A DNA stretch of 42,500 nt, taken from Roseicyclus marinus (GTDB lineage Bacteria > Pseudomonadota > Alphaproteobacteria > Rhodobacterales > Rhodobacteraceae). The DNA lies in contig NZ_JASJOF010000003.1 of NCBI RefSeq assembly GCF_030163795.1, positions 1 to 42,500 on the forward strand. The letters are read 5' to 3'. The notes under the pieces were generated by a model. That model saw only the letters and a program-made list of their open reading frames with translations, was not told where the DNA came from and did not search any database. The position numbers were made by a program, and so were the translations under genes. Shown one piece after another: positions 15,257 to 39,314 of this stretch (position 1 is its first letter; each line of letters opens with the position of its first letter).

Positions 15257-15487
15257 ATGGCTGAGGATGAGACTCTGGACACTTTGGGCCTGCTATGTCC
15301 GCTGCCGGTTCTCAAGGCGCGCAAACGGCTGAGGGCGATGCAGCCCGGGCAGGTTCTGCGGCTTTTGGCCAGCGATCCAGCGGCGGTGGTGGATGTGCCG
15401 CATTTCTGCGCCGAAAGCGGTCACGAGCTTCTGGGTGTCGAGGATGCGGGCGACGGCGCGCAGGCCTATCTCATCCGGCGGGCCTGA
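15257..15487 (+). CDS. TusA-family sulfurtransferase
   Basis: 76 residues from the ATG at 15257 with GGGGGAG upstream. The TusA/SirA signature TLGLLCPLPVLKARKRL is at the N-terminus, with the sulfur-carrying Cys at 14. The rest (LLASDPAAVVDVPHFCAESGHELLG) fits the small two-layer fold. TusA-like proteins pass persulfide sulfur to tRNA thiolation, molybdenum-cofactor synthesis or sulfur oxidation. Here the 3' end overlaps moeA convergently by 17 bp, and fdhD is three genes beyond, so a role in supplying sulfur for molybdopterin or FdhD is reasonable but inferred. The gene is alone on its strand. Confidence 0.9.
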   Translation: MAEDETLDTLGLLCPLPVLKARKRLRAMQPGQVLRLLASDPAAVVDVPHFCAESGHELLGVEDAGDGAQAYLIRRA

Positions 15488-16754
15488 TCCCGAAGGACGC
15501 GTAAGGCAGATAGCGCACCGGATCTCCGGGCGCGACGGTGCAGGCCCCGTCCGGCAATTCCACCAGACCCGTAGCCCAGCTCAAACCCGAAATCCGCCCC
15601 GACCCTTCGGAGGCAAAAACCTCGGCCGCGCCGGTGTCGGTCAGGCGCGCGCGCAGATATTCGCGTCGCCCAGCCTTCTTTCGCTTGGAAAAGGCGGCGG
15701 GCACGGTGAAGCCCTGCGGTGCGGACCAGCCTGCCCCCGACAAGAGCGACAGTGCAGGACGGGCAAAGACCAGCGCGCAGGTCATGGCGGCAACCGGGTT
15801 TCCCGGCAGGCCGAACACAGGCACACCATCCCAGAGCGCCAAGGCCAGCGGGCGGCCCGGCTTGACCGCGATCCGCCAGCTCGACAGCGTCCCGCGGTCG
15901 CGCAGGAGCCGAGAGACATGATCCTCATCGCCAGCCGAGGCCCCACCCGAGGTCAGGATGGCATCGGCATCGTGCGCGCCCCGATCCAGACGCGCCGCGA
16001 TTTCGACCGCATCGTCGGGCGCGTGGCCCAGATCGATCGTTTCGAACCCCCACTCCGCCAGCAGCGCCAGCAGCATCGGGCGGTTGGCGTCGAAGATCTG
16101 GTGGGGCTGGGCGGGCGCGGCGGGGTCGGGCAGCAATTCGTCGCCCGTCGACAGGACCGCCACGCGCAACCGTCGATGCACCGCGACATGCGCCACACCC
16201 ACCGCCGAGAGGAGCGCCAGATCGGCGGGCGTCAGCAGGTGGCCTGCAGGCAGGATCATCGCGCCTTCGGGCACATCCTCACCGGCTTGCCGCGTGTTGA
16301 TGCCGCGCTTGACCGGCCCGTCGAAGGCGACGGCCTGACCATCGGTGGCGCAATCCTCCTCCAGCACCACGGTATCCACGCCATCCGGCAGGATCGCGCC
16401 GGTCAGGATGCGAATGGCGCGACCGGGCGGGACGGTATCGGCGAAAGGCTGACCCGCCGCCGCACGCCCCGGCACAAGCGGGAGGCGCTGCACGCCCTCA
16501 CTGGTCGCGGCATGGGCAAAGCCGTAGCCATCGACAGCGGAATTGGGGCGCGGCGGGTTGGACCTGCGCGCCGTCGCGGGTGCTGCAAGGATCCGACCGT
16601 GGGCCGCAGCGGTGGTCAGGTCCTCGGTCCCGGTCACGGCATGAAGCCGCGTCCGCAAAAGCGCCAGCGCCTCGTCGACCGGCACCCATTCGACGCCTTG
16701 CGGCATGGCAAAGCAATCATTGCGCAGACGCGGGGGGATCAAGCCATCGGTCAT
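15471..16754 (-). CDS. moeA: Molybdopterin molybdenumtransferase MoeA (canonical copy)
   Basis: 427 residues. MoeA inserts molybdate into adenylylated molybdopterin. The expected motifs are all here: the early active-site loop NSAVDGYGFAHA, TGAILPDGVDTVVLEED, the RQAGEDVPEGAMIL segment, the MoCF domain with VLSTGDELL, TSGGASAGDEDHV and the FGLPGNPVAAM loop. The start ATG at 16754 overlaps the mobB stop (ATGA), so it is the last gene of a coupled fdhD-mobA-mobB-moeA run. It is the only one of three MoeA homologues in the window that keeps the standard active-site pattern without a fused domain. Confidence 0.95.
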   Translation of the reverse strand: MTDGLIPPRLRNDCFAMPQGVEWVPVDEALALLRTRLHAVTGTEDLTTAAAHGRILAAPATARRSNPPRPNSAVDGYGFAHAATSEGVQRLPLVPGRAAAGQPFADTVPPGRAIRILTGAILPDGVDTVVLEEDCATDGQAVAFDGPVKRGINTRQAGEDVPEGAMILPAGHLLTPADLALLSAVGVAHVAVHRRLRVAVLSTGDELLPDPAAPAQPHQIFDANRPMLLALLAEWGFETIDLGHAPDDAVEIAARLDRGAHDADAILTSGGASAGDEDHVSRLLRDRGTLSSWRIAVKPGRPLALALWDGVPVFGLPGNPVAAMTCALVFARPALSLLSGAGWSAPQGFTVPAAFSKRKKAGRREYLRARLTDTGAAEVFASEGSGRISGLSWATGLVELPDGACTVAPGDPVRYLPYASFGIRPAG

Positions 16755-17242
16755 AATCCCACCTCGGCACGGATGAAGGCCGCGATGCCCGCGACATCGT
16801 TCAGATCGAAGCAGGGTAAAGCCGTTTTCAGCGGCCCGTCGCTGGCGATAGCCCGGATCGTGGCGTTCTGTGGCGCGAGCAGATCGCGGCCAGTCGCCTT
16901 CCGCCAGGTTTCGATCTTGGGATGGGGGGCGGATTTGTAACCCTCGATCAAGACGAGGTCGCAGGGGTCGAGATGGGCGAGAAGATCGGCCAGTGGCGGC
17001 TCTTCTGCGCCGCGCAATTCTGTCATCAGGGCCCAGCGGACGGGCGAAGCGACGATCACCTGTGCCGCACCGGCCATCCGGTGGCGGTGGCTGTCGCGGC
17101 CCGGATGGTCGATCTCGGTCGCGTGGTGGGCATGCTTGACCGTCGAGATGCGCAAACCCTGCCCCACCAACTCGGCTACCAGCCGTTCGGTCAGCGTGGT
17201 CTTGCCGGTGTTTTTCCACCCGGTGACGCCGTAAACCCTCAT
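16751..17242 (-). CDS. mobB: Molybdopterin-guanine dinucleotide biosynthesis adaptor MobB
   Basis: 163 residues. A P-loop at the very start (MRVYGVTGWKNTGKTTLTERL) and the segment STVKHAHHATEIDHPGRDSHRHRMAGAAQVIV are the MobB signature; LILIEGYK-type text follows (DLVLIEGYKSAPHPKIE). MobB binds GTP and assists MobA in forming the bis-MGD cofactor used by formate dehydrogenases. Start and stop overlap both neighbours as ATGA, so expression is tightly coupled to mobA and moeA. Confidence 0.94.
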   Translation of the reverse strand: MRVYGVTGWKNTGKTTLTERLVAELVGQGLRISTVKHAHHATEIDHPGRDSHRHRMAGAAQVIVASPVRWALMTELRGAEEPPLADLLAHLDPCDLVLIEGYKSAPHPKIETWRKATGRDLLAPQNATIRAIASDGPLKTALPCFDLNDVAGIAAFIRAEVGL

Positions 17243-17850
17243 GCCGCCCCCATCAGCGCCTCGGCCGTGGCGATATCCTCGGGCGTGTTGACGTTGAAGA
17301 ACGGATCGAAGGGTGCGGCATCGAACACAGCCTGCCCGGCGGCATGGCCGTCGGTCCAGATCACGATCTTTCGCAAACCTCCGCTCAGGGCCGTGCGCAG
17401 GTCGTGGCGCAGGGCAACGGGCCAAAGGCCGAAGGTCGGCTGGCGCTGCACTCGTCCCGTGTCGTCGGGGCTGGCGGCCAGACACAGTCCGGATGGACCT
17501 GCATGTTCCATCAGCCGCGCCACCAGATCCCCGGGGAAAAAGGGCGTGTCGGCGGCGGCGGTCACGATGGCATCGGCACCCTGCGCCGCTGCCCAATCAA
17601 GGCCCGCCAGCACACCGGCCAGTGGGCCCGGATGGTCAGGCAGAGTGTCGGGCAGGATCGGCAGGCCGAACTCCTCCAGCCGCGCGGGATCGCCGTTGGC
17701 ATTGATCGCCATCGCGGCGCATTGCGGGCCGAGCCGGTCGATGACGTGATCGATCAGGCGTCTGCCGCCCACCATGCGCAGCCCCTTGTCGCCGCCGCCC
17801 ATGCGCGTTGCACGCCCACCGGCCAGAATGACGCCAAGCGGTCTGGTCAT
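17239..17850 (-). CDS. mobA: Molybdenum cofactor guanylyltransferase MobA
   Basis: 203 residues. The nucleotide-binding start GVILAGGRATRMGGGDKGLRMVGGRRLIDHV is the MobA signature; AINANGDPARLEEFGLPILPD and TAAADTPFFPGDLVARL carry the metal-binding Asp, and DPFFNVNTPEDIATAE is the family's C-terminal motif. It transfers GMP to molybdopterin to make MGD. It overlaps fdhD upstream (ATGA at 17847-17850) and mobB downstream (17239-17242). Confidence 0.95.
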   Translation of the reverse strand: MTRPLGVILAGGRATRMGGGDKGLRMVGGRRLIDHVIDRLGPQCAAMAINANGDPARLEEFGLPILPDTLPDHPGPLAGVLAGLDWAAAQGADAIVTAAADTPFFPGDLVARLMEHAGPSGLCLAASPDDTGRVQRQPTFGLWPVALRHDLRTALSGGLRKIVIWTDGHAAGQAVFDAAPFDPFFNVNTPEDIATAEALMGAA

Positions 17851-18722
17851 GCGTCATCCTCCGCACTCTTGCGGCGGTGGCGGCGGTCTTCTTCGGGGAT
17901 GGATGCGAGATCTGCATCACGGATCAGGCGGCTTTCGCCGGACAGGCAGACGAAGCGCTGCCCGCGCATCCGGCCAATCAGCGTCAGGCCCAGTTGCTGG
18001 GCGATTTCCACGCCCCAAGCGGTAAATCCCGACCGCGAGGCAAGGATGGGAATCCCCATCATCGCGGTCTTGATCACCATTTCCGATGTCAGACGGCCCG
18101 TGGTGTAAAGGATCTTGTCGGCGGCGGGCACATCATGGTGGCGCATGAAACCCGCGATCTTGTCGACGGCGTTATGACGGCCGACATCCTCCATGTAGAC
18201 AAGCACCTTGTCCTCCTGACACAGAACCGTGCCATGGATCGCGCCCGCGCTGAGGTAAAGCGACGGCAGCGTGTTGATCTGACGCGACAGGGCATAAAGC
18301 CAGCTGGTGCGCAGGGAAGCGGAGGGGAGCGTCACACCCTCCAGCCCCTCCATCATGTCGCCGAAGACGGTGCCGACCGCACAACCCGAGGTGCGGGTTT
18401 TTTTCTTCAGCTTGTCCTCGTAGCTGGTCTGGCGATCGGTTCGCACAACGACCGTCTCGATATCCTCGTCGTAGTCTATGCCGGTCACCGTATCGTCGTC
18501 GCGCAACATGCCTTGATTGCGCAAGAATCCCAGCGCGAGGTATTCCGGGTAATCCCCGATGGTCATCGCCGTGACGATTTCCTGACTGTTGAGGTAGATG
18601 GTCAGCGGCCTTTCCTCGACAACGGGCAGTTCCACCTCGGCACCGGTGTGGTCATGGCCACGCACCGCGCGCGTCAGGCGAGCAGCCGAGGGATCGGGCA
18701 AAAGGGGCAGGTTGGGCAGCAT
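17847..18722 (-). CDS. fdhD: Formate dehydrogenase accessory sulfurtransferase FdhD
   Basis: 291 residues. FdhD moves sulfur from a cysteine desulfurase to the bis-MGD cofactor and is needed for FDH activity. The segments LTIYLNSQEIVTAMTIGDYP, EYLALGFL, MEDVGRHNAVDKIAGF, ILYTTGRLTSEMV and PILASRSGFTAWGVEIAQQ are typical. The sulfur-carrying loop reads TSGCAVGTVFG with one cysteine (C114), where E. coli FdhD has CxxC. The C-terminus is a charged tail. GGAG precedes the ATG. It heads the coupled run fdhD-mobA-mobB-moeA and follows the WD40-cytochrome c gene by 63 bp. Confidence 0.95.
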   Translation of the reverse strand: MLPNLPLLPDPSAARLTRAVRGHDHTGAEVELPVVEERPLTIYLNSQEIVTAMTIGDYPEYLALGFLRNQGMLRDDDTVTGIDYDEDIETVVVRTDRQTSYEDKLKKKTRTSGCAVGTVFGDMMEGLEGVTLPSASLRTSWLYALSRQINTLPSLYLSAGAIHGTVLCQEDKVLVYMEDVGRHNAVDKIAGFMRHHDVPAADKILYTTGRLTSEMVIKTAMMGIPILASRSGFTAWGVEIAQQLGLTLIGRMRGQRFVCLSGESRLIRDADLASIPEEDRRHRRKSAEDDA

Positions 18723-18785
18723 GGATGCTCCGGCGGTTCGGGACGGATCAGGTATATCGCAGCGATGGGTCGGGGCCAGCCCCGA

Positions 18786-20030
18786 TCACCGGCTGGCGCG
18801 GTCGAGAAATTCGACCAGGGCCTGCCGGTCGGCGGGGTCGGCCACCCGTTGATCGGGCATGCGTGATCCCGGGGTGTAGATGTCCGGGCCAACCTCGAAC
18901 AATTCCGCCACGGTTTGCGGTGTCCAGATGATGTCGAGCTCTCGCAGAGCGGGAGAAAAGGCATATCCCGCGACCGAGGCGATGGGCCGGTCGAAAATGC
19001 CATGGAGGCTTGGGCCCGCGCGGGAATGGTCGCCGGGTTCCAGCGAGTGGCAAATGGCACAGGCGCGATAGACAGCGGCGCCGCGGCTGCCGTCATCATG
19101 GTCGGCAAGGGCCGTGGCCTGCGCCCCGCCAAGGCGCGCGCCGGTGCTTGTGTCGTGGCGGCGGATCGCGCCCGATGCGCCACCGGCAAACAAAGTGTCC
19201 CCTGCCAGTGCCAAGGCCCAGACCGGCCCGCCTTCACCCGGAATTTCCGCGCGCACCTGGAGAGTGTCATCCGCCAGAAGCCACACCGCTCCATCGACCG
19301 CGGCGGCGGCGACCGTCCCCGCCGTTGCGGCAACCGCCACAAGCGGGCGCTCGCTCAGGAAGCGTTCGGGCAGGACGAGTCCATCGGCGGAGAACAGGCG
19401 CAGCGCACCTTCGGCAAAGATCACGGCGATCCTGTCCCCGACACGGGCAAGCCCATTGGGCAGATCGGGCAACCCGGTACTGGCCTGCGGCGACAGATCG
19501 GCATCCCAGCGGGTGAAGCGCAGATCGCCACCGACGGTGACCAGATCGCCATTGCCGAGAAAGGCGAGCCCCGACAACCGACCGTCATGGGCCTGCACGC
19601 TTTGCAGGGTCCGTCCCGCAGTATCCATCACGACAAGGCGTCCATCCCAGAACCCCGCCGCGATCAGGGTTTCATCCGGCGACACCGCCAAGGCGGCAAG
19701 CGGCGAGACACCGTGGGCCGTGGCAAAGACCGGTGCGCTGCCTTCGACCGCCGCATCCCAGAGCGCGACGCGCCCATCCTGGCCGCCAGTCAGGTATCGT
19801 CCGCCCGACATAAGCGCCACGGCCGTGACATTGCCGTCGTGGAACCGCACGACATGGCGGGCGCGTGACAGGTCTGGCGCCCACAGGATCGCCCGTCCGT
19901 CGAAGCCGCCCGAGGCGAGCCGGTCGCCATCAGCCGCCAACGCACTGACCGGTCCGGCATGGCCGAAGGGGGATTGCGCCATGGCCGGGCTGGCCAGCGC
20001 AAGCATCAGGACACAGAAAAGGCGCAACAC
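18786..20030 (-). CDS. Periplasmic WD40 beta-propeller fused to class I cytochrome c
   Basis: 414 residues from a GTG at 20030. A Sec signal (MLRLFCVLMLALASPAMAQ) is followed by WD40-like repeats: GHAGPVSALAADGDRLASGG with RAILW, DGNVTAVALMSGGRYLTGG with RVALWD, and further weaker blades up to about residue 305. The C-terminal 90 residues are a cytochrome c domain with haem motif CAICH (324-328), GPSLHGIFDR as in mitochondrial-type class I cytochromes, and an axial Met near 391 (TPGSRMPDQ). It probably carries electrons in the periplasm; the propeller may dock a partner. Its place between the Mrp gene and fdhD ties it to the FDH operon. Confidence 0.85.
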   Translation of the reverse strand: MLRLFCVLMLALASPAMAQSPFGHAGPVSALAADGDRLASGGFDGRAILWAPDLSRARHVVRFHDGNVTAVALMSGGRYLTGGQDGRVALWDAAVEGSAPVFATAHGVSPLAALAVSPDETLIAAGFWDGRLVVMDTAGRTLQSVQAHDGRLSGLAFLGNGDLVTVGGDLRFTRWDADLSPQASTGLPDLPNGLARVGDRIAVIFAEGALRLFSADGLVLPERFLSERPLVAVAATAGTVAAAAVDGAVWLLADDTLQVRAEIPGEGGPVWALALAGDTLFAGGASGAIRRHDTSTGARLGGAQATALADHDDGSRGAAVYRACAICHSLEPGDHSRAGPSLHGIFDRPIASVAGYAFSPALRELDIIWTPQTVAELFEVGPDIYTPGSRMPDQRVADPADRQALVEFLDRASR

Positions 20031-20050
20031 CTTGGGTGCGGCCTCGGGGA

Positions 20051-20206
20051 TCAGTTGGTGAGCAAGTTCGAGCCGGGATCGCCGACGCGGGCACCTTCGG
20101 TGGCGAAGGCCGAGGACGCCGGGGTCTGGTAGCTGTCATTCAGAACAAAGGATGCGCCGGCTGCGATAGCGACGGCAAAGATCACGGAGGCAAGGAACGC
20201 TTTCAT
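20051..20206 (-). CDS. Small (51-residue) anchored or secreted protein of the FDH operon
   Basis: 51 residues, MKAFLASVIFAVAIAAGASF at the start, which is a hydrophobic segment usable as signal or anchor, then a polar tail with GARVGDPGSNLL. AGGAG lies at the right distance before the ATG at 20206, which makes it a credible gene despite its size. It is placed between Mrp (14 bp) and the WD40-cytochrome c gene (20 bp) with no other candidate frame. The name and function are unknown; a small FDH-associated subunit or assembly peptide is possible. Confidence 0.7.
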   Translation of the reverse strand: MKAFLASVIFAVAIAAGASFVLNDSYQTPASSAFATEGARVGDPGSNLLTN

Positions 20207-20220
20207 TATGTGGTCTCCTG

Positions 20221-21351
20221 TCAGGTGCGGATCGGCTGTGCCGCCCGCTTTCCGGGTTCCAGCCCGGCCAGGACGGCACGGGCGATCTGTTGATAAAGTC
20301 GGCCCAGCGGACCATCGGGGTCGCGGGCGGTGATGGGCTGGCCCGCGTCTGATGCGGCGCGCAGGTCCATGGTCAGGGGGATGGCCCCGAGGAAGGGCAC
20401 GGAAAGCCGCGCCGCCTCGGCCTCGGCGCCGCCTTGGCCAAAGATGGCATGGGAGCCGCCGCAATCGGGGCAGATGAAATGGGCCATGTTCTCGACGATG
20501 CCGAGGATCGGCACATCCACCTTGCGGAACATCGAGATGCCCCGCCGTGCGTCGATCAACGACAGGTCCTGCGGGGTCGAGACGATCACGGCCCCGGACA
20601 GGCGGGTGCCCTGTGCCAGCGCCAGTTGCGCGTCGCCGGTTCCGGGCGGCATGTCGACCAGAAGGATATCAAGGGGCCCCCAATCCACATCCGCCATCAT
20701 CTGCGTGATGGCCGACATGACCATGGGTCCGCGCCAGACCATCGCGGCCTCGGCCTCGACGAGCAGGCCCATCGACATCGCCTTGAGGCCATAGGCCTGC
20801 ATCGGCTTGAGTTTGCGACCCGCGGCCTGCGGTTTGCCATGCAGGCCCAGCAGTGTGGGAAGCGACGGGCCGTAAATATCGGCGTCAAGGATGCCGACAG
20901 ACAAGCCCTGCGCCCTTAGGGCGAGCGCGAGGTTCACCGTGGTGGTGGATTTGCCGACGCCGCCCTTGCCGGAAGCGACCGCGATGACATGGCCGACGGC
21001 GGCCAGTGGATCGGGCTTTTCGGCCTTCGATGTGGTCAGGGACGGGGGCGCGGGTCTCGCAGCCTGTGTTTCGCTGGTCAGAACGACGAAGGCGCTGGTC
21101 ACGCCGGGCAGGCGGCGCAATCGGGCCTCTGCCTCATCGCGCAGCGCAGCAAGCGACGCGGCCTCGGCGGGACTGGTGCGGATCGAAAGGTTGACGCGAT
21201 GGCCGTCCACCATGGCACCGGACAGACGGTCCGAGGCGGCAAGCGGGGTGCCATCGGGCAGCGTCAGGCCCTGCAGCGCCTCGATCACCTGGTTGTCGTT
21301 CGTGTCCGACACGGGTTCCGTCCATCGGGTTTGAGGCGCATTCGGCCCCAT
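20221..21351 (-). CDS. apbC: Mrp/ApbC-type P-loop Fe-S cluster carrier ATPase
   Basis: 376 residues. The N-terminal MIP18/DUF59-like domain (residues about 20-100) is followed by the deviant Walker A VIAVASGKGGVGKSTTTVNL, the switch region LDADIYGPSLPTLLG, MPPGTGDAQL and the cluster-binding pair CPDCGG (FICPDCGGSHAIFG). Mrp proteins carry 4Fe-4S clusters to target enzymes. Here the target is plausibly the FDH beta subunit or the cytochrome-bearing partners. The ATG at 21351 has GAAGGA just upstream; a GTG 14 codons on is the alternative. It sits behind the FDH gamma gene by 44 bp. Confidence 0.92.
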   Translation of the reverse strand: MGPNAPQTRWTEPVSDTNDNQVIEALQGLTLPDGTPLAASDRLSGAMVDGHRVNLSIRTSPAEAASLAALRDEAEARLRRLPGVTSAFVVLTSETQAARPAPPSLTTSKAEKPDPLAAVGHVIAVASGKGGVGKSTTTVNLALALRAQGLSVGILDADIYGPSLPTLLGLHGKPQAAGRKLKPMQAYGLKAMSMGLLVEAEAAMVWRGPMVMSAITQMMADVDWGPLDILLVDMPPGTGDAQLALAQGTRLSGAVIVSTPQDLSLIDARRGISMFRKVDVPILGIVENMAHFICPDCGGSHAIFGQGGAEAEAARLSVPFLGAIPLTMDLRAASDAGQPITARDPDGPLGRLYQQIARAVLAGLEPGKRAAQPIRT

Positions 21352-21395
21352 GCGTCCTTCGCACGGGGCCGAACAGCGGTTTCGTCAGGGCGCTA

Positions 21396-22388
21396 TCACT
21401 CGGCCGGGTGCGGGCGCGCCTTCGATCCGGTTTCGCCCTTCACTTCTTCGACCCAGAGCGAGTGATGCTCTTTCGCCCAGTTCTCATCGACCTCGCCCGA
21501 ACCCATGGCATCGAACGCGCCCTCCATCCCGACGGAGCCGATGTAGATGTGCGCGATGATGATGGCAGACAGCGCGGCGGCCGTCAGGGCGTGGATCGTC
21601 TGGTAGAACTGCCAATCGGCAAAGGTCGCGACCTCGTTGGGGAACAGCAGCATCACGCCGGTAAAGGACAGCGCCGCACCACCAAGGACCACCGACCAGA
21701 AGATGATCTTCTGCCCGGCGTTGAACTTCTTGGCCGGGGGGTGAACACCCTTCTTCAGAAGGCCGCCGCCCTGCTTCATCCATTCCAGATCGACCTTGTT
21801 GGGGATGTTGTGGATCACCCAAAGAACCACGATCATGACCAGTGCGACCATGAACGGCCAGGCCAGGAAGTTGTGCGCGATCTTGCCCCAAGCGCTGAGC
21901 GTGCCGAAGGCGCCCTCGCCGATCATGGGCAGCAGCACGGTGCGGCCGATGATGATGTTGAGCCCCGACAGCGCGAGGATGATGAAGGTCGAGGCAAGCG
22001 TCCAATGCGCGAAACGCTCGATCGCGTTGAAGCGCAGGATCTTGCGCCCCGACATCCCGCCGTCGATCCGGATCTTGCCCCTGACGAGGTAGAACAGCGT
22101 CAGAAGGGCGATCATGCCGATCACGGCCCAGATCGAGATCGTGTGGAGCGTATCGCCCTGCATCGCGGCCCAGACGCGGTTTTCCGGTGCGATCAACTGG
22201 CCCGCATGTGCATCGGGAATGCTGATGCGGCCCGTGACATTGCCGCCCGAGCCCAGCGCGTCGAACAAGGCTTCCTCGGTCACGGATTCAGCGGTCGGGT
22301 TGACCTGCGCCATGGCCTGAGGTGCGAACAGGCCCAGCGTCAGGGCAAGCCCCAACGCAACGACCAGACGGTGGATTTGATGTGCCAT
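21396..22388 (-). CDS. Formate dehydrogenase gamma subunit (cytochrome b556-type)
   Basis: 330 residues. A Sec signal (MAHQIHRLVVALGLALTLGLFAPQAMAQ) is followed by a periplasmic segment (about 28-82), then four or five membrane spans, as in FdoI/FdnI-type subunits with an extra N-terminal part. Candidate haem ligands are in ERFAHWTLAST, IHNIPNKVDLEW and TIHALTAAALSAIIIAHIYIG. This subunit anchors the periplasmic FDH and passes electrons to quinone. AAGGGAAAG lies before the ATG at 22388, and it begins 11 bp after the beta gene. No fourth structural subunit is seen. Confidence 0.93.
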   Translation of the reverse strand: MAHQIHRLVVALGLALTLGLFAPQAMAQVNPTAESVTEEALFDALGSGGNVTGRISIPDAHAGQLIAPENRVWAAMQGDTLHTISIWAVIGMIALLTLFYLVRGKIRIDGGMSGRKILRFNAIERFAHWTLASTFIILALSGLNIIIGRTVLLPMIGEGAFGTLSAWGKIAHNFLAWPFMVALVMIVVLWVIHNIPNKVDLEWMKQGGGLLKKGVHPPAKKFNAGQKIIFWSVVLGGAALSFTGVMLLFPNEVATFADWQFYQTIHALTAAALSAIIIAHIYIGSVGMEGAFDAMGSGEVDENWAKEHHSLWVEEVKGETGSKARPHPAE

Positions 22389-22399
22389 CTTCTTTCCCT

Positions 22400-22996
22400 T
22401 CAGACCGTCACGGTTTCGCCATAGGCCGTGCGCCAGCCCCAGGCGCCCGAGCCATAGCCGCGCGTCACGACACGCTCGCGGTAGATTTCCGCGATGATGT
22501 CGCCGTCTCCGGCCAGAAGCGATTTGGTGGAGCACATTTCCGCGCAAAGCGGCAGCTTTCCTTCCGCCAGGCGGTTGGAGCCATACTTGATGTATTCCAC
22601 CTCGCTCATGTCCGGCTCCGGGCCGCCCGAGCAGTACGTGCATTTGTCCATCTTGCCGCGGGTGCCGAAGTTCGCGGTCTGCGGATACTGCGGCGCACCG
22701 AAGGGGCAAGCATAGGAGCAATAGCCACAGCCGATGCAGGTGTCCTTGTTGTGCAGGACCACGGCATCGTCGGTCGTGTAGAAGCAATCGACCGGGCACA
22801 CCGAGGCGCAGGGCGCATCGGTGCAGTGCATGCAGGCCATGGAGACCGAGCGTTCGCCCGGCAGACCATCGTTGATGGTGACCACGCGGCGCCGGTTGAT
22901 GCCCCACGGAACCTCATGCTCGTTCTTGCAGGCGGTGACGCAGGCGTTGCATTCGATGCAGCGGTCGGCGTCGCACAGGAACTTGAGACGTGCCAT
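22400..22996 (-). CDS. Formate dehydrogenase beta subunit, four 4Fe-4S clusters
   Basis: 198 residues. The cysteine pattern is that of FdhB/DmsB-type iron-sulfur subunits: CIECNACVTACKNEH, MACMHCTDAPCASVCPVDC, CIGCGYCSYACPFG and a last set KCTYC with CAEMC. These hold four clusters that wire the alpha subunit to the cytochrome b. There is no signal peptide, so it is exported together with the Tat-signal-bearing alpha subunit, as usual for this enzyme class. It is 15 bp after the alpha gene. Confidence 0.95.
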   Translation of the reverse strand: MARLKFLCDADRCIECNACVTACKNEHEVPWGINRRRVVTINDGLPGERSVSMACMHCTDAPCASVCPVDCFYTTDDAVVLHNKDTCIGCGYCSYACPFGAPQYPQTANFGTRGKMDKCTYCSGGPEPDMSEVEYIKYGSNRLAEGKLPLCAEMCSTKSLLAGDGDIIAEIYRERVVTRGYGSGAWGWRTAYGETVTV

Positions 22997-23011
22997 TTGC
23001 TATATGCTCCT

Positions 23012-25984: not shown

Positions 25985-26199
25985 CAGTTGGTCCCCCGAG
26001 GATAGTAGCGGTTGGTCCGGTAATAAGTTTCGACATGTTCTGTGGCCTGGTAACGGGCGCGCGTGCGCTCGTCCCCGGTTTCCTGGGCAAGCGCGGGGCG
26101 CGCCGATCCGGTGCCCAGCGCGACGCTGGCCGTTGCGCCAAGAGCCGTGGTCCCGAGAAAGGCCCGCCGGCTGATCGGTGTGGGTGTCTTGCTGGTCAT
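25984..26199 (-). CDS. Small Tat-signal protein of the FDH region
   Basis: 71 residues. Twin-arginine signal (ISRRAFLGTTALGATASV, RR at 11-12), an AxA-type cleavage region (ARPALAQ), and a short charged mature tail with ARYQATEHVETYYRTNRYYP. This matches the family known as formate dehydrogenase region Tat target, small proteins always placed just upstream of the catalytic subunit. Function unknown; chaperone-like or assembly roles are suspected. Its stop overlaps the fdhA start (TGATG), so the two are co-translated. Confidence 0.88.
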   Translation of the reverse strand: MTSKTPTPISRRAFLGTTALGATASVALGTGSARPALAQETGDERTRARYQATEHVETYYRTNRYYPRGTN

Positions 26200-26287
26200 G
26201 TCGATCCCCTTTCTGCTTCGGTTCGGGCTCTATTCCGGTCCGAGTGTCGTTTCATTCCTGTAGTCAGACCGCTTGCCGGTCCTTGCG

Positions 26288-26893
26288 TTAGGCCGCGAGC
26301 GAGAACGCGCGCGCCTCGATGTCCACAAGCAATCGGCCAACCTCGGCGACTGCTCGGTAAAAAGATGCACTGGGTGCGATAGCCAGATCGTCGAAGAACT
26401 GCGCAGCCCAAGGTTCGATATGCCGCCCGAAAAATTCAGCCTGCATTGATGCCGGGGCCTGAACCGCACCGGATGCAAGGTCAGCCATCACCTCGAACAA
26501 CAGTGCGATGTGATCCTCGGGTTCGAACCGCCCTTCGGCGCGGGCAATGCCCAGCCGCGAAAGATCGCTCCTGACCTCGGCAAGCGGCCGTTCATTCAGG
26601 AAACCGGTCTGATAGAAACTGGCGTAGGGCAGCAACTCGCCGCGCCCGACACCGATGAAAAGCTGAAAGAATTCCCGCTCCACCTTCGCGGCATCGGTGC
26701 CGCGCGCAGCTTCGGCGAGGGCCGTGATGGCCTGGCCCAGCGCTGTCCGGTCACCCGTCAGCGCGGCGGTTCCATCCAGAATTTCCCGTGAAGGCGCGTG
26801 AGAAAGCAGGGTCGCCACGAAGCGATACATGTCGCCTCGCGCTGCGTTTTCTGCGTCACTAGCGGGCCGGTCGCCCGGCTGGCTGGTTTTCAT
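26288..26893 (-). CDS. TorD/DmsD-family molybdoenzyme chaperone
   Basis: 201 residues, all helical. The TorD-family traits are the N-terminal DMYRFVATLLSHAP, the central VEREFFQLFIGVGRGELLPYASFYQTGFL with its Y/F-rich patch, and PEDHIALLFEVMADL with the E-P-E-D-H pattern conserved in DmsD/TorD. These chaperones bind the Tat signal and help load cofactor. It is upstream of the FDH structural genes on the same strand, so its client is most likely FdhA. AGGA precedes the ATG. It begins a sub-operon after a 189-bp gap. Confidence 0.9.
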   Translation of the reverse strand: MKTSQPGDRPASDAENAARGDMYRFVATLLSHAPSREILDGTAALTGDRTALGQAITALAEAARGTDAAKVEREFFQLFIGVGRGELLPYASFYQTGFLNERPLAEVRSDLSRLGIARAEGRFEPEDHIALLFEVMADLASGAVQAPASMQAEFFGRHIEPWAAQFFDDLAIAPSASFYRAVAEVGRLLVDIEARAFSLAA

Positions 26894-27082
26894 GAGTCCT
26901 GTTCTCTTCCCTCACGCGACGATTGCATACAATCGCGTGCCCTGCTCCTAAGGAGCGTGAGAGCGGGTGTTTGGTCAAGCGAAATTTGTCAAATGCATGC
27001 AATTTTTCCCGACACCCCAACCCTCTATCCGGATGGCCCAAAGGGCTTTAGCCCAAGCAACATTGATCCGTCGTGAGGGCGG
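26894..27082 (-). promoter_or_regulatory. Candidate promoter/operator region upstream of the torD-fdh genes
   Basis: This 189-bp gap between DUF3306 and torD holds three symmetric elements: CGATTGCATACAATCG (26920-26935, 6-bp arms), GCTCCTAAGGAGC (26944-26956, 6-bp arms) and AAATGCATGCAATTT (26991-27005). On the minus strand a TTGACA (26992-26987) and a TTGACC (26978-26973) could be -35 boxes; -10 matches are weak. The ATTG-CATA-CAAT type is the sort bound by GntR/FCD regulators. No such regulator is encoded in the window. Confidence 0.45.
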
Positions 27083-27769
27083 TTATCCCGGCATCGCCGA
27101 TCCGTGTCGCCTGCGCGGCAAGGCGTCCGGATCGTCAACAGGGTTGCTGCTTGTCCGCACGGAATCATCGGTTGTCCGGGCCGCGGGGGTCGCCTCGGAT
27201 ACAGCCGCTGAAACCGCGGGTTTTGGCCCATCATCAGCCGCCGACGCTTCGGTCGCATCGTCCGATTCTATCGCCTCGGCAGCCGCCGCCTCCGCGGACT
27301 GGTCACCCACTGCCTCCGCTGCGGTGTCACCGCGCGGGGACAGCAGTGACTTCAACATCTGGGCCGCGCGTTCGGGGGACGGTGCCACCCCGTCACCGGG
27401 CACACCGCCGGGGGTGTTCCAGTCCCACGCGTAATCGACAGCCGGGTCCTGATGATCGCGAATACCGGGCGTCAGCATCCAGATCCGGCGCAGCGCGGCA
27501 TTCTTGAGCGACCGCGGAACCCCCGGTCGCAGGAACGGGCGGATGTCGCTGCCCTGCACCAGATCCTCGATCCGGGGCAAGGCGGCCAGTTCTTCGTCCG
27601 AGAGAGTCGGAGGCGCGGCTTCGGTTTCGACTTCGGGCGCGGCTGTGCCCTCGGCCACAGCATCGGCCTCGGGTGGAAGTTCCGACTCGGTCTCCGGCTC
27701 GGAGCGCACCGCCGTGCGCTTGACCCGTGACCAGCGGCCCAGAAAGCCTTCGGGTTCGTCGCCGTTCAT
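27083..27769 (-). CDS. DUF3306 family protein
   Basis: 228 residues from the ATG at 27769. The N-terminal part has GFLGRWSRVKRTAVR and the central part PPTLSDEELAALPRIEDLVQGSDIRPFLRPGVPRSLKNAALRR-like text (several blocks), followed by IWMLTPGIRDHQDPAVDYAWDWNTPGGVPG, which is the conserved core of DUF3306. The C-terminal third is an acidic, alanine-rich low-complexity tail. The family is seen beside Fdh genes and DUF3305. It overlaps DUF3305 by ATGA (27766-27769). Function unknown. Confidence 0.8.
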   Translation of the reverse strand: MNGDEPEGFLGRWSRVKRTAVRSEPETESELPPEADAVAEGTAAPEVETEAAPPTLSDEELAALPRIEDLVQGSDIRPFLRPGVPRSLKNAALRRIWMLTPGIRDHQDPAVDYAWDWNTPGGVPGDGVAPSPERAAQMLKSLLSPRGDTAAEAVGDQSAEAAAAEAIESDDATEASAADDGPKPAVSAAVSEATPAARTTDDSVRTSSNPVDDPDALPRRRHGSAMPG

Positions 27770-28305
27770 GGATCCGACCTCCGGCCTTTGCGATTCTCCC
27801 ATTTGTCCTCGGGCTGGAGGACGCGGGGCGCACGCGACACGACCGCGTTGGGGTCGGCGGGCTGACGCTTGCGTTTCTTGAAGGGCATCTCGACGAAATG
27901 CCGGTCGGCGAAGGCTGCCACAGCTCTCGCGACAGCATCAGGCATCGGCACCGCATCCACGATAAGGTCAGGGTCCGAGGCCAGCCCCTCACCCTCGTAG
28001 GGATCGACCGTGGCGGCCATAACCTCGGCGCGCGCCGGATCGCTCCCGCGCAACGCCACCCAGACCGACGGCCGCCCGGACATCAGGTTGTCGCGGTGGT
28101 GGCTGGCATCCCCCGACCACAAAACCACGTCGCGTCCGCCCACATACCATGTCTCGACGCCCGCCTCCGTGCCCAGCAGGGTGCCGGGCGGGGTCGCGGG
28201 TTCGACGGGCAGGACCAGCAGCGGGCGCAATTCCCCGGTGCTCCAACGGGTCACGGGCGGGCGGCGTTGTGCCACGACACCGATGCGGATGATCTCCCTT
28301 GGCAT
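27766..28305 (-). CDS. DUF3305 family protein
   Basis: 179 residues, beginning MPREIIRIGVVAQRRPPVTRW. The core (VETWYVGGRDVVLWSGDASHHRDNL, PSVWVALRG, VMAATVDPYEGEGLASD) fits DUF3305, and the C-terminus is a basic tail (FKKRKRQPADPNAVVSRAPRVLQPEDKWENRKGRRSD). DUF3305 and DUF3306 travel as a pair in formate dehydrogenase clusters. The pair overlap by 4 nt here and are probably partners. Function unknown; no catalytic motif is visible. Confidence 0.8.
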   Translation of the reverse strand: MPREIIRIGVVAQRRPPVTRWSTGELRPLLVLPVEPATPPGTLLGTEAGVETWYVGGRDVVLWSGDASHHRDNLMSGRPSVWVALRGSDPARAEVMAATVDPYEGEGLASDPDLIVDAVPMPDAVARAVAAFADRHFVEMPFKKRKRQPADPNAVVSRAPRVLQPEDKWENRKGRRSDP

Positions 28306-28320
28306 ACCGTCCCCCTCCGT

Positions 28321-29310
28321 TCAGTGCAGATGCGGTTCGGCCAACGGCAGGCCGGACAACAGGTTTTGCGGTTTCATCCGCACCGCGCCGTCCTGCCCAA
28401 GGCCAAGCAGCAGCCAGACCGGGTGACCCGCTACATCCGCCCGCATCACCGACGGATCCGCAAAGTCGAGCCGGAACACCCCGATCAGGCTGGCAGGCAA
28501 CGCCCTGCCGTGCCACAGCGAATCCCCGATGGCCGTGCCGTTCGGGTCAAGCCCCACATACCAGCGCAGGTCCACATCGTCGACGCGGGTCTGCGGGGTG
28601 ACGCTGAGCTCTACCCCCAGCATATGCCGGATGAAGGCAGCCAGCGCCGTGGCCATGCCGCGCCGCGCTTCGGGATCTCCGCCGAAATTATAGATCATCG
28701 TATGGGCGTCCGACCGTGACCAATAGGTCCATTCATTGCCGCCGCCCAGCACGTCGAGGCTGTCGATCCCGCCCGAGAACATCGCCATGAGCGGAGAGGC
28801 ATGCATGTCGGCCTCGAATAGCGCCACAAGCTCTTCGTCGGCCATCAGGACCATGCCGTCCTTCACATGGGCGCGCTGCGGCCGGAACAGGCATTCGGCC
28901 GCGCGCAACACCTGCGGATCGTCGCACCCGTCCAGCGCGTTGCGCAAGATCAGCTGCACCAACTGCGACAGGAACACGACCGGAAGACGCAGCCCCTCGC
29001 GCATGATCGCGGCATAGCCTTCTTCGATGGTGCCCGCCTTTTGCAGCCGGTCGCGCAGCGTCAAAAAAAACTGCCAGTTCTCGCGCGCATCGGGATCCTT
29101 CACCGCAGCCAGTTCCAAGGGCGGAACAGCGGCGCGCGGATCCGCCATCAGCCGCGCATGGACGGCGCGCTCGGTCGCGCAGGCGTCGGACGGGGGGACG
29201 ATCTCGGGGCGGGCAAGCCACGCCAACAAAAGCTCGTCCGTCACGACCATCCGGCCCGCGTGATCCAGCCGCGCCAGATGATGGCCTGAAGCGACCCAGA
29301 ATTCCGGCAT
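28321..29310 (-). CDS. DUF6352 family protein
   Basis: 329 residues. The start MPEFWVASGHHLARLDHAGR, ACATERAVHARLMADPR, DPDARENWQFFLTLRDRL, LILRNALDGCDDPQVLRAAECLFR and ADEELVALFEADM match what I know of DUF6352. It is cytosolic and helical, with conserved acidic and arginine residues and no recognised catalytic motif. Its start overlaps the DUF6505 stop as TGATG at 29308-29312. The constant company of DUF6505 and FDH genes suggests a role in FDH maturation or regulation; this is inference. Confidence 0.75.
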   Translation of the reverse strand: MPEFWVASGHHLARLDHAGRMVVTDELLLAWLARPEIVPPSDACATERAVHARLMADPRAAVPPLELAAVKDPDARENWQFFLTLRDRLQKAGTIEEGYAAIMREGLRLPVVFLSQLVQLILRNALDGCDDPQVLRAAECLFRPQRAHVKDGMVLMADEELVALFEADMHASPLMAMFSGGIDSLDVLGGGNEWTYWSRSDAHTMIYNFGGDPEARRGMATALAAFIRHMLGVELSVTPQTRVDDVDLRWYVGLDPNGTAIGDSLWHGRALPASLIGVFRLDFADPSVMRADVAGHPVWLLLGLGQDGAVRMKPQNLLSGLPLAEPHLH

Positions 29311-29861
29311 CAGTCCTGCCCCCGCAATTGAAAGAGATCGACGTGATCCTCGGTTTCTTCCTCGAAGAACTGAAACGCCCGGTCGTGGCCCATAAGGTGC
29401 GAGGCGGAAAACGCCGTCTCGTCGCGCGGGCGCAGGGTGCGGAATTGCTCCCGGATCTCGCCATCCTCGCCGTGCTTGCGATGAAGCGCGATCAGAGTGC
29501 CAATGCCATGTGCGGCACAGAGGCTTTCCGCCAGCGCCACCTCTTGTTCTGCGGCGGGGCGCGCGATGTCGCGGGATGGCGCGCCAAGCTGCGCGACCAG
29601 TTGATCCGCCAAAGCCTCGACCATCGCGGCGCGCTCGTCGGGGCGTGCCTCCTGCACGGTGACGAGCGTGGAATGGCCGAAACTGTCCACACCCAGAAAT
29701 CCAGAGCGAAAGGCGATCGCCTCCTTCCGGGTCAGGCTGTCGGGTGCGCGCCCCCAAAACAGGAAGGTGCCCGGGACCGCCCATTCGCCGGGTTCTGCGG
29801 CATGGGCAAAGATGTGGCGGTCCGACGGGTCAAGCCGGATCGTACGCGGCAGCCTTGTCAC
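29310..29861 (-). CDS. DUF6505 family protein
   Basis: 183 residues from a GTG at 29861. It begins LPRTIRLDPSDRHIFAHAAEPGEWAVPGTFLFW, with FRSGFLGVDSFGHSTLVTV and a C-terminal HLMGHDRAFQFFEEETEDHVDLF, which I recognise as DUF6505. No enzyme motif is visible. The protein overlaps the ligase-like gene upstream by GTGA (29858-29861) and DUF6352 downstream, so the three are translationally coupled. Function unknown. Confidence 0.72.
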   Translation of the reverse strand: MTRLPRTIRLDPSDRHIFAHAAEPGEWAVPGTFLFWGRAPDSLTRKEAIAFRSGFLGVDSFGHSTLVTVQEARPDERAAMVEALADQLVAQLGAPSRDIARPAAEQEVALAESLCAAHGIGTLIALHRKHGEDGEIREQFRTLRPRDETAFSASHLMGHDRAFQFFEEETEDHVDLFQLRGQD

Positions 29862-30595
29862 AGCTTCGGCCCGGCTTCGTCACGCCAGCCTTGGACCGCC
29901 AGCGCCTCGCGCAGCGGGGGCAAACGACGCCCGCCGCCCGAGGGGGTGATTTCCATCATCTGGTCGCCTTCGATCCGGCGCACGCCCCGCAACAGCGGGG
30001 GATCGACCCGCATCAGGAAACGGTTCGACACGGCGGCAAAGCCGTCATGGGCCCAGCGGTCGAAATACAGCATCATGTAAGACGCAAAGGTCGACACGAT
30101 ATCCTCGGCCGGGTCGAACCCTTCCTCGAACAGCGACGTGCTGTCGGGATAGGAACCCGGCTCGGCGATATGGTGCCGGTCGGCGATCAATTCGGCGGCA
30201 AAGACCATCCAATCGGGCACCGCATCCTCGGCCGTGCCGGGCGCGATGGCAAAGCGGCCGCCGCCAATGCGCGCGCCGTCGAACAGCACCTCGTCCGGCC
30301 AGTTCAGACGCACCGGGCGGTCGGGCGGGCAATGCGCGGCCAACGCGTCGCCCAGCGCCGTCATGCCCAAAAGAAAGGCCAACTGTGCTTCGACCAGCTT
30401 CTGCTCGGGTTCCAGCACCACGGCAAAAGCCAGAAGTCCCGCCGATTGGTGCAGCACCAGCGTGCCTGCACCCTCGGACGGGGCCAGCGCCACAGCCGCC
30501 GCCAGCACATCGCGGTTTTCAGTGCGATGCGGCGTGAACGGAGGCGGCAGATGCAGCCTTGGCCCTACTTGGTCTTCCGCAAGCAAGCTCGACAT
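29858..30595 (-). CDS. Biotin/lipoate-protein-ligase-like protein with altered catalytic motifs
   Basis: 245 residues from the ATG at 30595 with a strong GGGAGGG SD. The fold is like biotin/lipoate A/B ligases: WPDEVLFDGARIGGGRFAIA corresponds to the WPND...KIGGIL motif, and a C-terminal DUF4444-like part (RFLMRVDPPLLRGVRRIEGDQMMEIT) follows. The ligase's GRGRxG loop is not visible (APSEGAGTLVLHQSAG at the likely place), and the conserved Lys of KIGG reads Arg (ARIGG). It may have lost ligase chemistry and now bind a partner or cofactor. It is the first gene of the run leading into the FDH operon. Confidence 0.75.
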   Translation of the reverse strand: MSSLLAEDQVGPRLHLPPPFTPHRTENRDVLAAAVALAPSEGAGTLVLHQSAGLLAFAVVLEPEQKLVEAQLAFLLGMTALGDALAAHCPPDRPVRLNWPDEVLFDGARIGGGRFAIAPGTAEDAVPDWMVFAAELIADRHHIAEPGSYPDSTSLFEEGFDPAEDIVSTFASYMMLYFDRWAHDGFAAVSNRFLMRVDPPLLRGVRRIEGDQMMEITPSGGGRRLPPLREALAVQGWRDEAGPKL

Positions 30596-30688
30596 CCGTT
30601 TTTCCCTCCCGAGACCGCTACCCTTCACCCAAGGTTCGGATTACACCCGGTGTTGAGATAGTCCAGCACAAGGCCAGACAAAAGCCCC
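30596..30688. promoter_or_regulatory. Divergent promoter region, ligase-like / polyferredoxin genes
   Basis: 93 bp separate two divergent start codons, so both promoters must lie here or within the coding ends. Only the SD sites are clear, GGGAGGG on the minus side and a weak AAGG on the plus side. No -35/-10 pair is convincing. Confidence 0.4.
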
Positions 30689-32641
30689 ATGTCCGACACG
30701 AACGATGTCCGCCTGATCTGCACCTGCGAAGGCACGATGACCCTTGCCGGCGATACGCTGGGGGCCACGGGCAAACCGGCCAGCCAACTTTGCCGCGCGC
30801 AGCTCGACAATTTCCGAGATGCATTGGGCAGCTTTGCCGCGATCACGGTCGCCTGCACGCAAGAAGCCCCACTGTTTTCCGAGGTGGCCGAGGATGCCGG
30901 ATATGCCGGCACCCTGCGCTTCGCCAATATCCGCGAAACCGCGGGATGGTCGGATGACGGGGCCAAGGCAGCGCCCAAGATGGCCGCGCTTCTGGCGATG
31001 GCGGAAACGGCGGGCTCTTCCTTCGAGACGGTCAGCCTTGAAAGCAACGGCGTTGCGCTGGTTCTGGGCCGCGACGAGGTGGCGCTCGAGGCTGCGCGGC
31101 AATTGTCGGGCGTGCTGGACCTGACCGTGCTGCTCCTGCCCGGCGCGGAGGCCGCGCCGCCCCGCCAGACCACGTGGCCGGTGCTGCAGGGGCGCATCGC
31201 ACGGGCCAAGGGGCACATGGGTGCCTTCGAGCTGACGGTCGATGCCTATGCCGCGCCCGCCCCGTCGTCGCGCAAGCATCTCGAATTCGGTCCGGCCCGC
31301 GATGGTGCCGTGTCACGCTGCGACCTCGTTCTGGATCTGACGGGCGGCCAGCCCCTGTTCCACCACACGCGCCCCGGCTACCTGCGCGCCGATCCGCGCG
31401 ACCCGTCGGCTGTCGCCGCGCTCGTGGCCGAGGCTGGCCAGATGGTCGGCGTCTTCGACAAGCCGAAATACATCGATTTCGAGGCGGGCCTCTGCGCCCA
31501 TTCGCGCAACACCAAGATCGGCTGCACCCGCTGCTTGGATCTATGCCCCACCGGAGCGATCCTGCCTGCAGGCGATAGCGTGGCGATCGATCCGGCGATC
31601 TGCGCGGGCTGCGGGCAATGCGCGGCGGCCTGTCCGACCGGCGCTGCCTCCTACGCGCTTCCTGCCGTGGGCAGCTTGGCCGACCGCTTGCGCGCCGGCC
31701 TGTCGGCATGGGTCGAGGCGGGCGGGCGCAGCGCGCCCGTCATCCTGTTCCACGATGAAGGGCACGGCGCGCCCCTGATCGATGCGGCGGCCCGGTTCGG
31801 GCGCGGCCTGCCTGCGCATGTCATTCCGGTGCAGGTCAACGAGCCAAGCCAGGTCGGCCCCGAAATCATGGCCGCGGCGCTGGCCTGGGGGGCGGGTGGT
31901 GTGCGCGTTCTGGCCAAGGACCGTCCCGCGCATCCGCTCGACGGGCTTGCCACGACGCTCGACCTGATGGCGGTCATCTGCGAGGCGATGGGGCAACCCG
32001 TAGACGCCTGCGCGCTGATCCAGACCGATGACCCGGACGCGCTGGAAACCGCGCTTTGGCATCCGGCCCAGCCGCTTCGCCCTACGCGATCCTCCTTCCT
32101 GCCACCCGAGGACAAGCGCGGCCTGCTGACCCTTGCCATGGAAGAGCTGAACCGCACCGCCCCCCGCCCGGCCCAGCGGATCGAATTGCCCAAGGGGGCG
32201 CCCTTCGGCAGCGTCACCCTCAACCTCGACAGCTGTACGCTCTGCCTTGCTTGTGTCGGTGCCTGCCCGACCGGCGCGCTTGGCGACAACCCCGACAAGC
32301 CGATGCTGCGCTTCACCGAAAGCGCCTGCGTGCAATGCGGGATCTGCACCGTGACCTGTCCCGAACAGGCCATCTCGATCACGCCACAGATGGATTTCGC
32401 CGCTTGGGCCAACCCCAAGCGCATCCTCAAGGAAGAAGAGCCGTTCTGCTGCTCGTCTTGCGGCAAGGGCTTTGGCACCGGGTCGTCCATCCGACGCGTG
32501 ATGGAGCGGCTGGAGGGTCACTGGATGTTCAGCGGAGAGGATGGCGCAGCGCGCAAACGGCTTTTGACCATGTGCGACGATTGCCGGACGAAAGAGGTCG
32601 TGATCGCGGGTTTCGACCCGCATGAAGGCCCCGCCTCGTGA
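30689..32641 (+). CDS. 650-residue multi-cluster ferredoxin-like protein of the FDH locus
   Basis: The N-terminus carries cysteines in an unusual setting (ICTCEGTMTL, C11 and C13; C35; VACTQEAPLF, C56), reminiscent of heterodisulfide-reductase-like parts. In the middle are two ferredoxin motifs (CTRCLDLCPTGAI, CAGCGQCAAACPTGAA), and near the C-terminus two more (CTLCLACVGACPTGALGD, CVQCGICTVTCPEQAI), then CCSSCGKGFG and CDDC pairs. So at least four 4Fe-4S clusters and possibly one more metal site. No signal peptide, so it is cytosolic. It is divergent from the ligase-like gene that leads the FDH run. It probably moves electrons between a soluble donor and another enzyme; its partner is unknown. 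Confidence 0.8.
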   Translation: MSDTNDVRLICTCEGTMTLAGDTLGATGKPASQLCRAQLDNFRDALGSFAAITVACTQEAPLFSEVAEDAGYAGTLRFANIRETAGWSDDGAKAAPKMAALLAMAETAGSSFETVSLESNGVALVLGRDEVALEAARQLSGVLDLTVLLLPGAEAAPPRQTTWPVLQGRIARAKGHMGAFELTVDAYAAPAPSSRKHLEFGPARDGAVSRCDLVLDLTGGQPLFHHTRPGYLRADPRDPSAVAALVAEAGQMVGVFDKPKYIDFEAGLCAHSRNTKIGCTRCLDLCPTGAILPAGDSVAIDPAICAGCGQCAAACPTGAASYALPAVGSLADRLRAGLSAWVEAGGRSAPVILFHDEGHGAPLIDAAARFGRGLPAHVIPVQVNEPSQVGPEIMAAALAWGAGGVRVLAKDRPAHPLDGLATTLDLMAVICEAMGQPVDACALIQTDDPDALETALWHPAQPLRPTRSSFLPPEDKRGLLTLAMEELNRTAPRPAQRIELPKGAPFGSVTLNLDSCTLCLACVGACPTGALGDNPDKPMLRFTESACVQCGICTVTCPEQAISITPQMDFAAWANPKRILKEEEPFCCSSCGKGFGTGSSIRRVMERLEGHWMFSGEDGAARKRLLTMCDDCRTKEVVIAGFDPHEGPAS

Positions 32642-33195: not shown

Positions 33196-33284
33196 CTGCC
33201 GCAGCTCCCCCCGCGCAATGCCGCCCCACGGGCCGCACCGGGTTTGCTTAGGCAAGCCAAGACCGGCTTGTCAACGCGCCCCGC

Positions 33285-35222: not shown

Positions 35223-35227
35223 CGTGT

Positions 35228-39295: not shown

Positions 39296-39314
39296 CCTAG
39301 GGAGTGATCTTATC

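Follow-up and report, generated by a model that had tools for sequence, protein, structure and literature searches.

Candidate biogenesis genes beside a predicted, probably tungsten-dependent, formate dehydrogenase in Roseicyclus marinus

Two described systems come closest to the formate dehydrogenase (FDH) locus at positions 15471–32641 of a 42,500-nucleotide stretch of Roseicyclus marinus DNA (contig NZ_JASJOF010000003.1, positions 1 to 42,500; hereafter the window). One is the tungsten cofactor pathway of MeFDH1 from Methylorubrum extorquens, which comprises MoeA1, MobB, MobA and FdhD, and for which a moeA1-mobB-tupBCA cluster has been reported (available text of PMC13197769). The other is a set of fdhGHI operons with NarJ-family chaperones, DUF3305 and DUF3306, described in 2015 (available text of PMC4464133). 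With the MeFDH1 pathway the window shares the same late cofactor genes, a MoeA with an Arg/Ala pair and Tup genes nearby, but MeFDH1 is described as a heterodimeric alpha-beta enzyme, whereas the window enzyme has a predicted Tat signal and membrane subunit. With the fdhGHI operons it shares the chaperone family, an fdh tat gene, the 4Fe-4S protein, DUF3305 and DUF3306.

The presence of DUF3305 and DUF3306 beside fdh is thus already published. A link of FDH3 to three further families of the window, DUF6352, DUF6505 and a ligase-like protein, was not found in the open literature searched. DUF6352 and DUF6505 are unnamed in the available text of PMC4464133 and were named by no paper in the open literature searched; the main text of PMC13197769 contains none of the words 'fdh3', 'hypothetical' or 'uncharacterized'; and further open-literature listings, judged by titles and the starts of abstracts, held no work on these accessory genes. 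We consider it moderately probable that the window encodes an FDH3, probably tungsten-dependent, together with a biogenesis line of its own, made up of a near-constant module and, in part of the phylum, an optional and movable one.

The formate dehydrogenase and its locus

On its sequence, the enzyme is a Cys-type respiratory FDH3, bearing a twin-arginine translocation (Tat) signal and anchored by a cytochrome b subunit (coordinates are window positions, on the minus strand unless stated). FdhA (23012–25984) carries the Tat motif RRSFL and the active-site sequence QARICH, which is of the Cys type, as are the sites of all 56 open reading frames matching the site pattern (only pattern-bearing frames being counted). 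FdhB (22400–22996) scores 334.6 bits against the FDH3 beta model NF038355 (cut-off 240), and the cytochrome b gamma subunit FdhC (21396–22388) scores 149.1 bits against TIGR01583 (cut-off 115.85); hydropathy above 1.6, our mark of a membrane segment, was reached by 55 of 55 FdhC proteins. Two matches fall short of their cut-offs. FdhA has its best match in TIGR01591 (Fdh-alpha), a model not specific to FDH3, at 444.8 bits in three stretches versus a cut-off of 666.25. The small Tat-signal protein FdhX (25984–26199), directly before FdhA, has its best NCBIfam match in formate_TAT (TIGR02811), at 40.7 versus 48.45 bits.

In a tree of FdhA sequences (n = 38, two short ones omitted), the window protein and that of G166 form a pair inside a clade of 10 rows (support 100). 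G022, G154 and G260, which belong to the same family as the window and lack DUF6352, fall elsewhere. Because the window FdhA clusters with sequences of other families and not with these three, the fdh block may have been acquired horizontally. At G199 C1 (L141:7800–10675), the FdhA frame shifts near its 3' end, by sequencing error or decay.

Five proteins without an assigned job lie upstream of FdhX and a TorD/NarJ-family chaperone (26288–26893; PF02613, 111.6 bits). These are a DUF3306 protein (27083–27769; PF11748, 68.1 bits, cut-off 25), a DUF3305 protein (27766–28305; PF11749, 112.5 bits, cut-off 25), a DUF6352 protein (28321–29310; PF19879, 159.5 bits, cut-off 25), a DUF6505 protein (29310–29861; PF20115, 191.8 bits, cut-off 23.9) and the ligase-like protein (29858–30595; PF16917, 182.7 bits, cut-off 27). 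Their scores are so far above the cut-offs that chance matches are excluded.

The original prediction, made from the letters of the window alone, listed FDH alpha, beta and gamma subunits, TorD, FdhD, MobA, MobB, MoeA, Mrp, a cytochrome c fusion, the DUF proteins and the ligase-like protein. All are present, and FdhX has to be added to that list. It also described seventeen minus-strand genes in a single packed run. There are 17 genes, 16 of them on the minus strand; the other, a divergent gene for a 650-residue 4Fe-4S protein with Fer4 domains (30689–32641), is on the plus strand. Packing is tight at seven junctions with overlaps of 1 or 4 nucleotides (MoeA/MobB, MobB/MobA, MobA/FdhD, FdhA/FdhX, DUF3306/DUF3305, DUF6352/DUF6505 and DUF6505/ligase-like), and the minus-strand run is interrupted by intergenic gaps of 44, 63, 88, 189 and 190 nucleotides. 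The proposed translational coupling of the unknown genes to core FDH maturation genes did not hold up: the unknown genes overlap only one another, and none overlaps an Fdh, MobA or FdhD gene.

Distribution and order of the accessory families

We searched two genome samples, one of the phylum (n = 229) and one of the class (n = 157), with some genomes in both; DUF3306 and the ligase family were searched in the class sample only. Genomes are cited by G and L entries, some of which are or may be identical genomes. In the phylum sample, FDH3 beta was found in 28 genomes and DUF3305 in exactly these 28; DUF6352 (12 genomes) and DUF6505 (17 genomes) occurred entirely within them. In the class sample, FDH3 beta scored above its cut-off in 22 genomes, all of which have DUF3305 and DUF3306. 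The latter two families were found in the same 25 genomes, namely the 22 with beta plus G071, G127 and G125. G071 (82% complete) and G127 (74%) have no FDH3 beta over the cut-off, but in both the contig with DUF3305 also has FdhA. DUF6352 was present in 21 class-sample genomes (18 with beta, two more being G071 and G127), DUF6505 above its cut-off in 14 (12 with beta, one more being G127; G091 has a match below the cut-off), and the FDH-linked form of the ligase-like protein in 17 (G071, G127 and 15 with beta). This last set consists of matches of at least 110 bits minus G087, whose copy is an ordinary ligase. Fisher P values for co-occurrence ranged from 1.7e-10 to 1.4e-36, and are overstated because the genomes are related.

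In the sampled genomes, then, the four DUF families and the FDH-linked ligase-like form rarely occur without FDH3. The idea that they are dedicated to FDH, for which the original prediction had suggested such a presence table, is borne out to the extent that all five are rare outside FDH3 genomes, at class level only for DUF3306 and the ligase-like form. The available text of PMC4464133 gives a figure of 60% for dmsD-fdhGHI operons, whereas here none of the FDH3 genomes in either sample lacks DUF3305.

The five had also been taken to form one module. They fall instead into two groups with different distributions, DUF6352 often being encoded elsewhere, and the pattern is best read as two biogenesis modules, one near-constant with FDH3 and one optional and movable.

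The first would comprise FdhX, TorD, DUF3305, DUF3306 and the 4Fe-4S protein. DUF3305, DUF3306, TorD, FdhX and FdhA follow one another as assigned genes on the same strand in 41 of the 55 contigs that have both DUF3305 and FdhA; among the remaining 14, six (G199, G214, G232, G345, G358 and G367) have the 4Fe-4S gene between DUF3306 and TorD. Within the stretches examined, TorD and FdhX were found in 21 of the 22 class-sample beta genomes (in G064 the contigs end) and the 650-residue 4Fe-4S protein in 19 of the 22. A second type of FDH3 locus, with DUF3305, is seen in one genus (G256 C103 and G343 C97; L150, L152). No pseudo-ligase group was found in the examined stretches of these loci, and a genome-wide search of G256 found no match to DUF6352 or DUF6505.

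The second module would comprise the ligase-like protein, DUF6505, DUF6352 and sometimes Mrp. DUF6352 stands directly before the DUF3305-DUF3306-TorD-FdhX-FdhA core in 25 of the 55 contigs, a figure biased upward in that part of these contigs were found via DUF6352, and the ligase-like gene and DUF6505 are ahead of DUF6352 in 18. Mrp is beside the ligase-like gene in G022, G096, G154, G135, G217 and G260; in the window, it is on the opposite side of fdhABC (20221–21351; Mrp/ApbC-type Fe-S carrier, PF10609, 332.5 bits). In G135, G105, G028, G051, G087 and G128, DUF6352 is far from fdh or on another contig. Among the best 80 of 564 DUF6352 loci, which include loci from Betaproteobacteria, 57 have no core fdh gene within the available flank, many flanks being short, and the ligase-like gene is nearby at 5 of these 57. 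Even so, FDH3 beta above the cut-off was found in 42 of 50 genomes with a distant DUF6352 (L063, L075, L087, L098, L109, L117 and L123 being omitted from this search), indicating that DUF6352 accompanies FDH3 even when it is not a neighbour. The neighbours of the 57 distant loci are mixed clusters, housekeeping by eye, of which the largest is shared by 17 loci; larger clusters consist of DUF6352 itself read in antisense or in a shifted frame. From these neighbours, as judged by eye, a second role for DUF6352 could not be inferred.

Several observations weigh against so close an association. In the phylum sample, 16 of the 28 FDH3 genomes lack DUF6352, 11 lack DUF6505 and 9 lack both. G125 (98% complete), with DUF3305, DUF3306, MobA, FdhD and the 4Fe-4S protein and no FDH3 beta, is a true exception. 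In the class sample, G007 has DUF6352 without FDH3 beta, and G119, also without beta, has a weak DUF6505 match with an internal stop codon. Of the 50 genomes with a distant DUF6352, 7 gave no beta match and 1 only a fragment; all 8 are metagenome-assembled genomes. Constancy of the DUF3305/DUF3306/4Fe-4S module is itself incomplete at the level seen: the examined stretches of G028, G087 and G105 showed no 4Fe-4S protein, nor did the second G343 locus, where the DUF3306 profile search was negative too, as it was in the examined stretch of G370.

In G125 C3 (L018), DUF3306-DUF3305-MobA-FdhD adjoin the 4Fe-4S protein. This cluster may be a remnant or may serve another client enzyme.

Tungsten or molybdenum

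Four cofactor genes with 4-nucleotide overlaps end the locus: FdhD (17847–18722; PF02634, 250.5 bits), MobA (17239–17850; TIGR02665, 189.9 bits, cut-off 151.85), MobB (16751–17242; 163 residues in its own frame, overlapped by 4 nucleotides on both sides and assigned from its sequence and from matching MobB-like frames found at further loci) and MoeA (15471–16754; Pfam MoeA_N, MoCF_biosynth and MoeA_C). Where molybdenum insertases have Lys and Ser, the tungsten-inserting MoeA1 of M. extorquens has Arg291 and Ala312, which shift its preference towards tungsten (available text of PMC13197769). The operon MoeA (KPGR ... GNPVA) has Arg and Ala at these positions. The MobB-adjacent MoeA proteins of G035, G075, G217 and L072 likewise read KPGR and GNPVA, and that of G166 has GNPAA, whereas Lys and Ser are found in MoeA proteins of G122, G199 and G232 that are not encoded beside MobB.

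Metal-related genes extend beyond 32641, up to 40133. They include a DUF2478 protein (32668–33255; PF10649, 158.4 bits), a MoeA-PBP protein (33285–35369; NF011068, 745.5 bits, cut-off 534) and, on the plus strand, a TupBCA-like ABC transporter (37662–40133) consisting of a permease, an ATPase and a TupA-like binding protein. TupA is the only match of the window binding protein, and TupB the second best match of its protein. Of 58 FdhA contigs, 14, among them that of the window, have a TupA-like gene in the examined stretch. The tungsten-type residues of MoeA and the TupABC-like genes together suggest that this FDH3 is likely a tungsten enzyme. A protein with HTH_17 and PBP-like domains (36845–38050) adjoins the TupABC-like genes, and is possibly their regulator.

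The assignment has its weak points. The TupA and TupB matches (214.2 and 171.4 bits) are below the equivalog cut-offs of 400 and 320, and TupA was not seen in the examined stretches of 44 of the 58 FdhA contigs. The residue rule for MoeA rests on one paper, concerning a different FDH; six MobB-adjacent MoeA proteins were seen, and a second MoeA of G199, not adjacent to MobB, has Arg and Ala as well. A dedicated line serving molybdenum rather than tungsten is the rival we take most seriously, at perhaps one chance in a few. It would fit the low Tup scores and the adjoining DUF2478 and MoeA-PBP genes, the latter showing, by eye, Lys and Ser in place of the Arg and Ala of the operon MoeA. It is harder to square with the Arg/Ala pair of the operon MoeA itself, as in the tungsten-inserting MoeA1, and with the recurrence of TupA-like genes at FDH3 loci.

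Roles of the accessory proteins

The ligase-like protein belongs to the same Pfam family as biotin protein ligase (PF16917), and the FDH-linked form lacks the catalytic lysines and the GRGR loop. We read these motifs, named after those of BirA, in 48 FDH-linked and 23 ordinary proteins (87 class genomes exceed the PF16917 cut-off; FDH-locus frames matching below 100 bits were excluded, and none was excluded for length). The ordinary ligases came from genomes with the FDH-linked form (16), FDH3 genomes without it (3) and genomes without FDH3 beta above the cut-off (4). In the FDH-linked proteins, the KWPND lysine is lost in 48/48, the GRGR columns are gaps in 48/48 and the second lysine (KxxG) is lost in 47/48; both catalytic lysines are kept in 23/23 ordinary ligases. 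With 0 of 48 keeping the first lysine or the loop, we reject an active biotin protein ligase; by these residues the FDH-linked protein is a pseudo-ligase. An ordinary paralogue is present in 16 of the 17 class-sample genomes with the FDH-linked form; in G154 the FDH-linked protein is the only match. Its closest solved relative by sequence is PDB 3bfm (E = 1.3e-11), a 'Biotin protein ligase-like protein of unknown function' deposited without a function, on which no relevant literature was found in open papers.

Two of the five unknowns were modelled, DUF6352 (predicted local distance difference test, pLDDT, 90.2; predicted template modelling score, pTM, 0.90; from 54 sequences) and DUF6505 (pLDDT 83.1, pTM 0.78; from 18 sequences). 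Neither model had a Foldseek match in the PDB at E ≤ 0.001, although they may resemble solved folds distantly. Searching solved structures by sequence gave best E values of 0.046 for DUF6352, 1.8 for DUF3305 and 0.4 for DUF6505. For DUF3305, a fused model is informative: the window MobA and DUF3305 match separate halves of the NCBIfam MobA-DUF3305 model NF011058, DUF3305 being the second half, and in G051, G125 and G128 the genes for DUF3305, MobA and FdhD lie side by side. Both observations point to a place for DUF3305, with its usual partner DUF3306, at cofactor hand-over.

From these features we infer how the line might work. The TupABC-like transporter would import tungstate, MoeA and MobB would insert tungsten into the pterin, MobA would make the bis-molybdopterin guanine dinucleotide (bis-MGD) cofactor, and FdhD would sulfurate it. 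DUF3305 with DUF3306 would aid the hand-over of cofactor from MobA/FdhD to apo-FdhA held by TorD, and Mrp would supply Fe-S clusters. The pseudo-ligase, without biotin chemistry, would form a scaffold with DUF6505 and DUF6352 and bind the cofactor or an FDH subunit, probably at the hand-over step or in subunit folding; FdhAB would be exported by Tat afterwards. A more specific version, which we regard as tentative, has a biotin-ligase fold free of its chemistry and two proteins without a PDB fold match forming a private assembly machine for tungsten FDH, with the pseudo-ligase pocket binding W-bis-MGD or a subunit tail at hand-over.

The unknown proteins could instead be structural or electron-transfer partners of FDH, which we think improbable. 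The Fer4 domains of the 650-residue protein would suit such a role, as would the single heme motif (CxxCH) of the WD40-repeat and cytochrome c protein (18786–20030). The latter is a possible electron acceptor of FDH and may be a true partner, yet it is outside the five. Many of the FDH3 loci read carry a relative of this WD40-cytochrome c protein. A Tat motif is present in FdhA, whereas the first 60 residues of the window 4Fe-4S protein and of each of the five unknowns contain none. The window proteins contain few cysteines (DUF3305 0, DUF3306 0, DUF6505 1, pseudo-ligase 1, DUF6352 3), making bound Fe-S clusters in the five unlikely. The available text of PMC4464133 labels DUF3305 and DUF3306 putative membrane proteins; hydropathy here argues otherwise, with stretches above 1.6 in 1 of 60 DUF3305 and 0 of 60 DUF3306 proteins, compared to all FdhC proteins, and with 59/60 and 60/60 lacking a segment we rule against membrane proteins in both families. 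Counting against our main reading, 21 of 51 ligase-family and 22 of 55 4Fe-4S proteins do have such stretches, so that some of these may contact the membrane.

A control module that senses formate, metal or redox state and regulates FDH expression or activity seems slightly less probable still. The second group is optional, as many regulators are, and the HTH-PBP protein is encoded close by. However, Pfam and NCBIfam scans of the five (Pfam only for DUF6505) matched no DNA-binding or sensor domain, and in the phylum sample DUF3305 occurs as strictly as the enzyme does. Between assembly and control, assembly seems the likelier role. Finally, chance neighbourhood or joint transfer without a functional link, to which the grouping of the window FdhA apart from G022, G154 and G260 might lend itself, is very improbable, and chance neighbourhood we reject, given the co-occurrence P values, overstated as they are, and that DUF6352 encoded elsewhere still co-occurs with FDH3 beta (42/50, versus 22/157 and 28/229 in the samples).

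When one tungsten formate dehydrogenase is produced in E. coli, the main bottleneck is described as maturation (available text of PMC13396061). Overlooked private assembly proteins, should a related enzyme have them, would be candidates for co-expression. The association with FDH3 also gives context to the orphan structure 3bfm, and to DUF6352 and DUF6505.

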